From Theodoxus fluviatilis (taxonomy: Eukaryota; Mollusca; Gastropoda; Cycloneritida; Neritidae), in assembly GCA_034096865.1 (NCBI GenBank), contig JAWQFJ010002821.1, positions 1 through 64,000 on the forward strand: DNA of 64,000 nt, written 5' to 3'. Made by a program: the position numbers and the translations under genes. Positions 3,629 through 34,188 of the stretch are shown piece by piece (position 1 is the first letter of the stretch; each line of letters opens with the position of its first letter). The notes under the pieces were generated by a model. It was not told the origin of the DNA, ran no database searches, and worked only from the letters and a program-made list of their open reading frames with translations.

Positions 3629-3781
3629 CTGTCTTCCTCTCCACCAGAGGGGGAAGGGGGATGACTGGTTTGAAGTAAACGTCGTCACTGGGGAGGGCCT
3701 CGTCCCTCTTTTCTCGGGACGTGCTCCCCTCAAACAGCTTCTGTCCTGCATTGGCCCACCGCAAGGGAAAGGTGTTGTCTG
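3629..3781 (-). CDS. Gene B exon B6: WANAGQKLF linker
   Basis: Encodes [12 protein letters not shown] and [19 protein letters not shown], the linker that precedes a RanBD. It is paralogous to A6 but 9 bp shorter. The donor ACAG|gtcaga leaves phase 1, so at least one more exon must lie left of the window. Confidence 0.8.
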
Positions 3782-6700
3782 CTGCAATGGCAAACCATGC
3801 AAAGCTTTCTTCAGCCTAGTCATTTGCTAGCTGGCTTGACACACACACACACACGTAGACAGACAGTCAGTCAGGCAGGCAGGCAGGCATCCATGCATTC
3901 ACAGACAAATAAAGACACACACATACACACACAGACGCACACACACATACACACACACACACACACACGCATGCACGCACACACGCACGCACGCATGCAC
4001 GCACACACACGCGCACAGACGCGCACACACATTTACACACACATATACTCACACACACGCACGCACGCACATACACATATACACACACATATACTCACAC
4101 TCACGCATGCAGGCACGCACGCACACACACACACAAACACACAAACACACATACACACATAGACACACACACACACACACACACACACACACGACAGGTG
4201 TTCACAAATACCGTATAGCATACCATTTCTCTGCATGGCTCAGGGTAGGAACACACACTGTTCACATCAACAAGACAGCCCACAGCAGCCAAGGAGACCA
4301 TGCAAAAGGACAGCACCAACCTTTCTGAGCAAAGCCTGGCTTCTCTGCTCCGGTCTTGGCAAGGTCAGCGAAGGAGAACCACTGGCCCACAGACACACCA
4401 GCAAATGGACCACCTGTGGTGAAAGTGTGCTGTCATTGCAGCGAATCCATATCCCAATAATTTCGTAATTCTTTAGCATTAGATAATATCAAGAAATAGT
4501 GCGAGCAACTCTCTGTACAATGTAGCCGCAAACACACATCACGGCTATCCATTGCCTACCTGACAATACATCAATTAAGCCAAGAATCTATTAACCACTT
4601 TTCAACGATGTATTTTTCTAGAATCAAAACAATGACACAGACTTTCATTACACTGCCTGTACCTCTTCAGTCAGCATGCTGCAGAGCAAGACTTTGTGGC
4701 GAACAAACTCCAGCCTCAAACGTACGTAGTTACTTGACATTCATCAGATATCACTCTTGCCATCTGCTGTACATCAAGCATCATTAGGTGGTGACAATGG
4801 CAGTGATAAATGGTTCTAGTTGCGTGTCCCCATTCAAAATCATCTGGGTAAAACTTTCCCTCATATCCTCTGAGCTGCATGGTTGATCCTGCATGGTTTT
4901 CTGACAGCAAACGTTCAACTGAATATGAAAATGGACACTTTTCCTACTTGAAGAACTGGGTGTGGCAGAGTCAGCACCCTCACCTTTCAGTAGACCACTT
5001 GCGAAGCATGAAGGGGCAGGGGTGGCACTGGCAGCAGGGGGGTGGGGGGCTGTGGAGGGGGTGTGGAGGGAGGGGGAAGACAAGCTGGGGGGAGGGACGT
5101 ATTCCTTGCAGCCAATGCAGCCGGGACATTCGGGGCGGCGCAGGTACAGATAGAAGTAGTCCGGCAGCTGGAATTGCCTGGCCAGGGCAACTTCTTCAGG
5201 GCTGGCATGTTCCACTTTCACCACCACCACATCCTCCTCTCTGTCCGTCAGGCCGTCTCCTTTCGACACTCGGATCGCTGTTGGAATGAAGGCTGTACCG
5301 TCATGCTGAACTGAAAAAACTGAGACAAAATTACATGTTTCCATGCTTACATGCTATCAGAAAAACTAATGACAAGGAAGTTTTGCTCCCCCGAAATGCA
5401 ATCCTGAGAAAGAAATTGGGCGTGAATATGCCTTGAGTCATGACAATTGAAACTCACAACTTTAGTCATTTGCCGATCCTTGTTTCTCCATCCTCCACCC
5501 ACCCACCCACCCGCCTCCCTCCCTTGATAGGGTGAAACCTCTGGTTGCTGCACTAAGGTCAATATGACTCATTCAACAGTTTAGTCTATCGACCTTTGGT
5601 TGCTCAACTGTGTCCAGTAGACGTGCCATCCTTACTACAACAAAATGGATGGAATCGCTACGTGGAAGTCGGTACCATTATGTAACTTTTCAGACACATA
5701 GGCCGAGCATTGCCTGACAAGTCGAACACTGCACAGAAGGTCGGGAGTTTGGCACCCTCCTGATGTTTCCTTTCTCTCTTCTCCAAATCTTTATCAGTCT
5801 GCTAGAAACTGAAGAAGACAAAGAACTAGGACAGACAAGAAGGGCAAAGCCCATACGACTCACATGCTTGACCTTGACCTTTATATGACCTTGACCTTCA
5901 GGTGACCTTCAAGGTCAAGGTCAAACAACTAAACCTACCAATGACATCATACACTAAGAAATGATTTACACATTTTTCCTACCAAAATACATGTGACCTT
6001 GACCCAAGGTCAAGGTCATCCAAGGTCATGCAACACAAAGCTGTTAATTCAAGACATAGGAAGCACAATGGTGCTTATTGGCACTTTCTACCATGAGATA
6101 TAGTCACTTTTAGTGGTTCACTACCCCATTTTGGTCACATTTCATAAGGGTCAAAGTGACCTTGACCTTGATGATATGTGACCAAATGTGTCTCATGATG
6201 AAAGTATAACATGTGCCCCACATAATTATTAAGTTTGAAACAGTTATCTTCCATAGTTCAGGGTCAAGGTCACTTCAAAATATGTATACAATCCAACTTT
6301 GAAGAGCTCCTGTGACCTTGACCTTGAAGCAAGGTCAACCAAACTGGTATCAAAAGATAGGGCTTGCTTTGACCTATATACCACTTGTAGCTAAGGTCGC
6401 CATTCTCAATAACGCGGGAGAAAATTGGGAAAATGTGAAAAATGACTGTTTTTGAGACCACATTTATGGCTCCTGTGACCTTGACCTTGAAGCAAGGTCA
6501 AGTCACTATGTATGTATTTTGAGGCCTTGTCATCATACACCATCATGCCACATTTGGTGTTGATAGACTTAATAGTCTCCGAGAAAAATCCAACGTTTAA
6601 GTTTTTTACGGACGCCCGGACGGACGCCCGGACGGACGCCCGGACGGACGGACGCCCGGACGGACGGACGACACGGCTCAGTACATAGACTCACTTTTGC

Positions 6701-34000: not shown

Positions 34001-34188
34001 AGGTGGCGACAGGTGGGGCAGCGGAAATCGCCTCCCTTGCTGAGGCTCTCCAGGCAGGAGACGCAGAAGGAGTGACGGCAGGGCAGCAGGAGCGGGACTC
34101 TGGCAGCGGAGTCGAAGGGCTCCATGCAGACGTCACACACCAGCACCGTGTTCATCATCTGATCCACGTCCACCGTCTTGGTCGCCAT
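27853..34188 (-). CDS. TRIM-family E3 ligase (RING, B-box1, B-box2, coiled coil)
   Basis: Exons 34188-33617, 32456-32244, 28827-28577 and 28013-27853 join in phases 2, 2, 1 and 0 to give 399 open codons. TRIM proteins are RING E3 ubiquitin ligases that dimerise through the coiled coil. RING cysteines and histidine are at residues 18, 21, 37, 39, 42, 45, 57 and 60. B-box1 covers about 98-135 and B-box2 about 157-193. The last exon has no domain I recognise and ends at a good donor (AAG|gtaggt). If that donor is not used, the frame stops at 27790. No NHL, B30.2 or other TRIM C-terminus is seen before gene B starts on the same strand. Confidence 0.85.
28577..28827 (-). CDS. TRIM exon 3: coiled coil continued
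   Basis: Encodes RTQLLEEVRQAKDRQKAELR and further Leu/Ile heptads, then a segment ending AFSDDYPG. Acceptor tgtgtgtag, donor CCAG|gtaaat, phase 2 to 1. Confidence 0.8.
28927..29031. repeat. (CA)n microsatellite in TRIM intron 2
   Basis: CA tract with a CGCG interruption near 28976-28985. Confidence 0.9.
29330..29552 (+). repeat. SINE-like element with ATTC tail
   Basis: Core GTGGGTTGGGGATACGAATA, then CATTCGTAAGAGACGAA, then GACTTGACTTGCTCTCAC, then the tail GCCTACAAAGGCCGATAGGC followed by ATTC repeats. Related copies occur at 44.77, 60.07, 54.36(-) and 23.33(-) kb. Confidence 0.6.
29775..29946 (+). promoter_or_regulatory. TATA/CCAAT promoter-like cluster
   Basis: Four ATTGG (inverted CCAAT) motifs at about 29777, 29850, 29869 and 29892, a GGGCGTGG near 29872, and GTATATAAACC at 29937-29947. 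The spacing is like a compact Pol II promoter. No gene follows, only tandem repeats. Confidence 0.5.
30000..30400. repeat. About 90-bp tandem repeat, four copies
   Basis: Units contain ATGAAGC(G/A)(T/A)CTCTCCGCCA, CCGTCTGAAGTG and GGGTCAAGTCGAGT, recurring near 30045, 30140, 30230 and 30320. Confidence 0.75.
30535..31624 (+). mobile_element. 5'-truncated I-group LINE with RNase H
   Basis: Encodes an RNase H domain (YTDGSKDGDRVA at about 30540, then SAELSALEAAL, then the VPSHMGIPGNERAD block near 30835-30880) and a C-terminal CCHC-like CRNCQCRLTMRHVLVECP near 31159-31212. A frame break lies near 30760-30850. The 3' end has the same GCCTACAAGGCTGATAGGC tail as the SINE-like copies and ends in ATCC repeats. 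A 22-bp target duplication flanks it (30513-30534 and 31625-31646). Confidence 0.8.
31801..32243. other. TRIM intron 2 sequence, nothing recognised
   Basis: No further repeat or exon seen. Confidence 0.3.
32244..32456 (-). CDS. TRIM exon 2: end of B-box2, coiled coil
   Basis: The acceptor ccacacag completes Ser-His, giving the last B-box2 histidine, then SIMDLSKAHVRAKKEFAELL, a heptad-rich helix. 71 codons, phase 2 to 2, donor GGAG|gtaaga. Confidence 0.8.
32817..33060. repeat. (ACC)n microsatellite in TRIM intron 1
   Basis: ACC/ACT tract, with the segment CACACCATCGT(T/C)GTGATCACC present twice (about 32850 and 32961). Confidence 0.85.
33061..33616. other. TRIM intron 1, nothing recognised
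   Basis: No exon or repeat structure seen. Confidence 0.3.
33617..34188 (-). CDS. TRIM exon 1: RING, B-box1, most of B-box2
   Basis: The start ATG at 34188 (MATKTVDVDQ) lies 17 residues before the first RING cysteine, and no better upstream start is seen. The RING pattern is C-x2-C-x15-C-x-H-x2-C-x2-C-x11-C-x2-C. B-box2 begins ETCVEH and needs the next exon for its final histidine. The donor GACAG|gtaagc leaves phase 2. Confidence 0.88.

Follow-up and report, generated by a model that had tools for sequence, protein, structure and literature searches.

Can a TRIM gene and the partial copy of a nuclear pore gene that follows it be read as a single gene? This question is raised by a 64,000-nucleotide stretch of the genome of the gastropod Theodoxus fluviatilis (assembly GCA_034096865.1, contig JAWQFJ010002821.1, positions 1 to 64,000; hereafter the window, meaning the whole stretch), in which four TRIM exons (T1–T4) are followed on the minus strand by seven RanBP2-like exons (A–G). 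An initial annotation of the window had suggested that both sets of exons belong to one chimeric gene. The exons, their phases, a duplication of RanBP2 around TRIM, and the lack of a RanBP2 5' end for the downstream copy within the window can be read directly from the DNA. We put the probability that T1–T4 are spliced to the downstream exons, yielding a chimeric TRIM-RanBP2 gene, at roughly 50%.

The TRIM exons

Exon T1 (33617..34188, minus strand, as are all exons discussed here) opens with the start codon ATG at 34188, encodes the RING and the B-boxes, and runs from phase 0 to phase 2. It is followed by T2 (32244..32456; end of B-box2 and start of a putative coiled coil; phase 2 to 2), T3 (28577..28827; putative coiled coil; phase 2 to 1), and T4 (27853..28013), which carries no recognised domain. 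Joined, they give 399 stop-free codons that end in phase 0 at 27853. The four exons described in the initial annotation are real. In Pfam, the RING (zf-RING_UBOX, 39.2 bits against a cut-off of 25.2) and the B-box (zf-B_box, 25.7 bits against 24.1, two stretches) both score above threshold in T1. In T2, T3, and T4 no Pfam family was significant, and none of the coiled-coil families matched T2 or T3; with phmmer, residues 15-294 align with the RING, B-box, and coiled-coil (RBCC) chains of TRIM28.

Protein searches with the TRIM part returned no match for TRIM alone (7999 candidates scored) and one TIF1-like match for residues 1-200 (1508 candidates scored). Neither result is evidence against TRIM relatives, since a search with the RanBP2 half did recover animal proteins from the database. 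As background, the Aplysia immunome is described in an excerpt of PMC9334734 as holding 22 TRIM genes, the mentions of RanBP2 in it relating to the zinc finger. An acceptor-like CAG at 34188-34190 precedes the start codon by 2 nucleotides (TTTCCAG/ACATG), and TRIM may thus have an upstream non-coding exon.

The downstream RanBP2 copy

The next coding exons on the same strand were said to be RanBP2-like between 15684 and 3629, and our analysis agrees. Exon A (15450..15684, the acceptor lying at 15684 or 15681) encodes an FG-type linker, B (12161..12366) further linker and the start of a Ran-binding domain (RanBD), C (9374..9538) the RanBD proper, and D (8952..9204) its end. They are followed by E (4984..5310), an IR1-M-like stretch, F (4321..4413), a linker, and G (3629..3781), which by its likeness to exon G' of a second copy (see below) holds the start of the next RanBD. 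Together, A–G comprise 477 stop-free codons with GT-AG borders at every exon and agreeing phases, and they match human and Xenopus RanBP2/Nup358 chains over a span from the FG linker to the end of a complete RanBD (Ran_BP1, 135 bits). Exon E reaches 13.5 bits against the IR1-M profile; both IR1-M scores (13.5 and 13.7 bits) are below the cut-off of 25, and the match to a RanBP2 chain has an E value of 0.034.

The downstream gene must extend past the left edge of the window. No cyclophilin was found in exons A–G within the window, the 3' end of this copy lying outside it. At the other end, neither the N-terminal TPR part nor the zinc ribbons of RanBP2 were found for this copy between 15.7 and 27.85 kilobases (kb), and 5' of that gap there is nothing but TRIM and the 3' end of the other RanBP2 copy. 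The statement that no RanBP2 N-terminus separates TRIM from exon A thus holds, yet TRIM is nonetheless flanked by the two parts of a RanBP2 duplication.

Another RanBP2 copy, 5' of TRIM

This second copy, absent from the initial annotation, lies 5' of TRIM on the same strand (63910-49148, exons B'–O'). Along the minus strand, the order is therefore RanBP2 3' end, TRIM, and a RanBP2 duplicate without its 5' part. Exon B' (63677..63910) exceeds B in length by 28 nucleotides, and its frame is shifted relative to that of B. Exons C'–I' (55373..62613) encode a RanBD, an IR-like stretch, and a RanBD, and exons I2'–O' (49148..54554) a RanBD end, an acidic stretch, and a RanBD-like end up to the stop codon TGA at 49154-49152, 3' of which lies a polyadenylation signal AATAAA (48724..48729, minus strand). 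From the RanBD on, the frame is unbroken over 13 exons to this TGA. Three Ran_BP1 stretches are present, the best matches are RanBP2/Nup358 chains, and no cyclophilin match was obtained in exons C'–O'. That this copy terminates before TRIM supports the chimera.

Could the two copies be a product of assembly, either misjoined or haplotypic? The frameshift in B' would fit such an origin; it sits inside a CCACC repeat, where a real change and a sequencing error are both possible. On the other hand, the introns are mostly unalignable and exon divergence reaches 21%, more than two haplotypes of one gene would show, and we regard an assembly artefact as very improbable.

Identity between the copies varies strongly from exon to exon (B 87.4, C 96.4, D 97.6, E 83.3, F 98.9, and G 79.1%), as does the synonymous divergence Ks (C 0.05, D 0.03, E 0.27, F 0.00, G 0.53), and the introns hardly align in blastn, including those adjoining C, D, and F. 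This patchy divergence suggests local gene conversion between the copies. The near-identical pairs C, D, and F lie at 8952-9538 and 4321-4413 versus 61159-62613 and 59189-59281. Exon G shows constraint between the copies (nonsynonymous to synonymous divergence, Ka/Ks, 0.197/0.527; Fisher p 0.011). The copies pair as sisters (support 100/100) in an 81-row RanBP2 tree. Haliotis, four Mytilus proteins (discussed below), and two further proteins join them in a nine-row fork (weak support, 81/66), itself nested in a 19-row group (100/100) that also contains Octopus and a rotifer protein.

Two other ways of connecting these exons have to be weighed. Exons A–G could serve the upstream RanBP2 gene as an alternative 3' cassette that is reached by splicing over TRIM, in keeping with the shared strand, the exon order, and the phases (40 of the 84 pairs of upstream donor and downstream acceptor are in phase). 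Such splicing would, however, skip the upstream stop, its polyadenylation signal, and the TRIM gene, spanning tens of kilobases, and we consider it improbable. Conversely, RanBP2 exon N' could join the acceptor-like site that precedes the TRIM ATG by 2 nucleotides: its phase-1 end would be taken up in frame there, as would 7 of the 12 upstream RanBP2 donors (N' included). Against this reverse fusion, the upstream gene has a last exon, stop, and AATAAA of its own, leaving it only a slight chance.

The gap between T4 and exon A

The proposed intron between T4 and exon A measures 12,168 base pairs (bp), and a long terminal repeat (LTR) element (21537..27455, minus strand; LTRs 99.6% identical) accounts for 5,919 bp of this length. 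A CCHC open reading frame (ORF) in the same orientation (23540-25177) is the sole ORF type found in it. The element is flanked by a direct repeat of 27 bp, which is long for a target-site duplication.

The initial annotation saw no recognisable TRIM C-terminus, and none came to light in the gap with Pfam, a codon scan, or tblastn. In the three minus-strand frames between 15.7 and 27.85 kb, solely retroelement zinc knuckles scored above the Pfam cut-off, and no tblastn match to any of ten RanBP2-like or TRIM-RanBP2 proteins fell between 15.8 and 27.8 kb. The codon scan picked out exon A (46.6), stretches of the LTR element, and three weak segments (12.7-14.6) that are no better than the opposite-strand control (best 22.4). 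All in all, these searches detected neither a RanBP2 5' exon nor a TRIM C-terminal domain between T4 and A, nor any other convincing exon. The start of exon A at 15684 or 15681 is supported by the coding signal, which sets in there: the first 27 codons carry 0.44 bits per codon and the rest 0.50, compared with 0.01 in the stretch before.

RING and RanBD in one protein

The initial annotation proposed looking for a RING and a RanBD in one protein, and such proteins have been predicted or described in other animals. Our search with the RanBP2 half as query (122 proteins passed, 120 listed) admitted candidates of about 482-1533 residues, a range that leaves out full-length RanBP2. Among the 120 matches listed, five combine RING and Ran_BP1 (domains checked; all of them predicted proteins), four being from Mytilus and one from coho salmon, and to these the published zebrafish ftr52 can be added.

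The Mytilus proteins (M. edulis/M. galloprovincialis; P0034, P0041, P0042, and P0043) share with the T. fluviatilis locus a RING and coiled-coil-type N-terminus, followed in their case by a zinc ribbon, FG linker, and RanBDs, and they end in the same RanBD-like C-terminus as the upstream copy described here. They differ in that their RanBP2 halves form one clade of their own in the 81-row tree, whereas the two T. fluviatilis copies are sisters, and their TRIM halves share 24-31% identity with ours, their B-boxes being below the Pfam cut-off. The Mytilus models include LOC143080689 and the NUP358 entries of M. edulis. For M. edulis P0041 and P0043, the longest contig has 438,391 bases in both cases, and the genes may be neighbours. 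A further Mytilus protein, P0057, is without RING and has a start that by eye resembles the coiled-coil end of P0041. The coho salmon protein (P0113, named RanBP2-like) likewise has RING, B-box, and TRIM coiled coil followed by RanBP2 FG, RanBD, and zinc ribbons, with the difference that its TRIM is of the fish type and that it holds the RanBD1-zinc-ribbon part of RanBP2.

The TRIM parts of these predicted proteins are 23-31% identical to the one studied here. This low identity, together with the separate clade of the Mytilus RanBP2 halves, led us to reject one shared origin with the Mytilus fusions; judging from these comparisons, the Mytilus and salmon fusions are likely events separate from the T. 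fluviatilis locus.

Zebrafish ftr52, as far as the excerpt of PMC3137616 describes it, is a finTRIM gene combining RBCC, RanBD, and cyclophilin A (CypA), of which a properly spliced transcript was cloned, and its authors propose that ftr exons were inserted into a RanBP2-like gene. The likeness is close: four TRIM exons are followed by RanBP2-like exons on the same strand, and the region lacks the usual C-terminal domain of a TRIM. It differs in being a teleost finTRIM that contains a cyclophilin and whose transcript has a premature stop, whereas in our mollusc the TRIM is of another type, no cyclophilin was found in the upstream copy, and the junction is a predicted one.

The analogy with primate TRIMCyp (TRIM5-CypA), raised in the initial annotation, is apt insofar as an RBCC gains a new C-terminal binding domain; it is looser than that with ftr52, as no cyclophilin was found in the upstream copy and the downstream copy ends outside the window. 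TRIMCyp also differs in having arisen by retrotransposition (PMC3137616, same excerpt). The engineered TRIMNup358, a laboratory construct that carries the RanBP2 cyclophilin domain and blocks human immunodeficiency virus 1 (HIV-1; PMC3234246, in excerpt), also joins an RBCC to a new C-terminal binding domain; no cyclophilin was found at our locus. Finally, in the LIMS1-RANBP2 patient fusion (excerpt of PMC5463148), the exon of a 5' neighbour is spliced to 3' RANBP2 exons after a rearrangement, although this is a human deletion and without TRIM. In the literature that we searched, TRIM-RanBP2 fusions did not turn up for molluscs.

One gene or two?

The strongest competitor of the chimera is that there are two unconnected genes: an RBCC-only TRIM, ending at 27790 or at a polyadenylation site in or past the LTR element, and a RanBP2 copy that is either truncated with its own start or decaying. 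Left unspliced, T4 would read on for 20 further codons to a stop ending at 27790, and it is common for TRIMs to lack a C-terminal domain (an excerpt of PMC2533329 counts 12 of the 18 worm TRIMs, as well as 15 TRIM or TRIM-like proteins in humans); the weak acceptor of exon A and the faster evolution of the downstream copy, both detailed below, also fit. It sits less well with the good donor of T4 (9.8 bits in a leave-one-out test on 23 donors), with a minus strand that carries neither AATAAA nor ATTAAA from 27853 to 27302 (the first such signal lies inside the LTR element), with an open frame in exon A that begins without a start codon, and with the fact that all seven downstream exons are still open. 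We regard two separate genes as a real prospect, somewhat short of even odds.

Several observations weigh against the chimera. At 2.1 or 3.0 bits, the acceptor of exon A is weak: it is outscored by 19 of the 23 other acceptors and matched by 7-10% of 896 random AGs. At 15602, out of frame for T4, there is a stronger AG (10.3 bits); we rejected it as the start of exon A because the first 27 codons of A score as coding. The claimed phase-0 fit of T4 to exon A is correct but a weak argument, as 3 of the 7 downstream exons would fit T4, and with many other pairings also in phase we rejected phase agreement as proof of the joint. The codon scan is insensitive, and because T4 itself scores just 14.9 in it, a missed TRIM exon is possible. 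Open frames were likewise rejected as proof that the downstream copy is alive, since 993 of 5000 neutral simulations were also stop-free, and Ka/Ks is about 1 or untestable in C, D, and F and not significant in E. By its sequence, the downstream copy is the faster evolving of the two, with an end branch of 0.14 compared with 0.024 for the upstream copy in the 81-row tree, and with 23 derived residues versus 12 (17 undecided; p 0.09). As for the precedents, the predictions from Mytilus and salmon may stem from gene models that were merged, and the ftr52 transcript has a premature stop (PMC3137616, same excerpt).

The chimera suggested initially thus fits the anatomy of the locus and has precedents in ftr52, Mytilus, and salmon, while the T4–A junction itself, expression, and function are inferred. 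Under the chimeric reading, the likeliest of those considered, RanBP2 would have been partly duplicated, and the copy without its 5' part would have landed just 3' of TRIM on the same strand; the second copy 5' of TRIM suggests tandem duplication as the route. T1–T4 would then be spliced to exon A in phase 0 over an intron of 12.2 kb, and the predicted product would carry RING, B-boxes, coiled coil, FG-type linker, RanBD, an IR-like stretch, and a second RanBD or at least its start. Its dimeric RBCC would bring a ubiquitin ligase to the partners of the RanBP2 part, that is, to RanGTP complexes via the RanBD and perhaps to SUMO-linked proteins via the IR-like stretch, near the pore. Alternatively, it might serve to decoy RanBP2-using parasites. 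By analogy with TRIMCyp, the chimera could be a defence protein.

Other elements in the window

Rfam and tRNA scans were empty. Further mobile-element remains lie on the plus strand. A Gypsy-like element (35424-42980, LTR-like ends 99% identical) sits between the upstream RanBP2 copy and TRIM, and a long interspersed nuclear element (LINE)-type element with endonuclease and reverse transcriptase (22-3168) lies 3' of exon G. In a TRIM intron there is an RNase H-like ORF (30532-31116), below the Pfam cut-off.

Biological meaning

TRIMCyp is a textbook case of a restriction factor born by domain capture. A broader and more doubtful idea, which we put forward tentatively, is that TRIM-RanBP2 fusions are recurrent in animals (arising separately here, in Mytilus, and in fish), that this locus represents a partial-tandem-duplication route to them, and that their products may be pore- or SUMO-directed ubiquitin ligases or parasite decoys. 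If T4 and exon A are not spliced, the locus would still be a clear partial tandem duplication of RanBP2 with patchy gene conversion; if they are, it would show the duplication stage in the birth of a TRIM-RanBP2 gene. Should RBCC-RanBP2 fusions indeed recur in fish and molluscs, RanBP2 would be a favoured partner, and the question would become whether hosts repeatedly make a ligase or decoy from a pore protein used by parasites.

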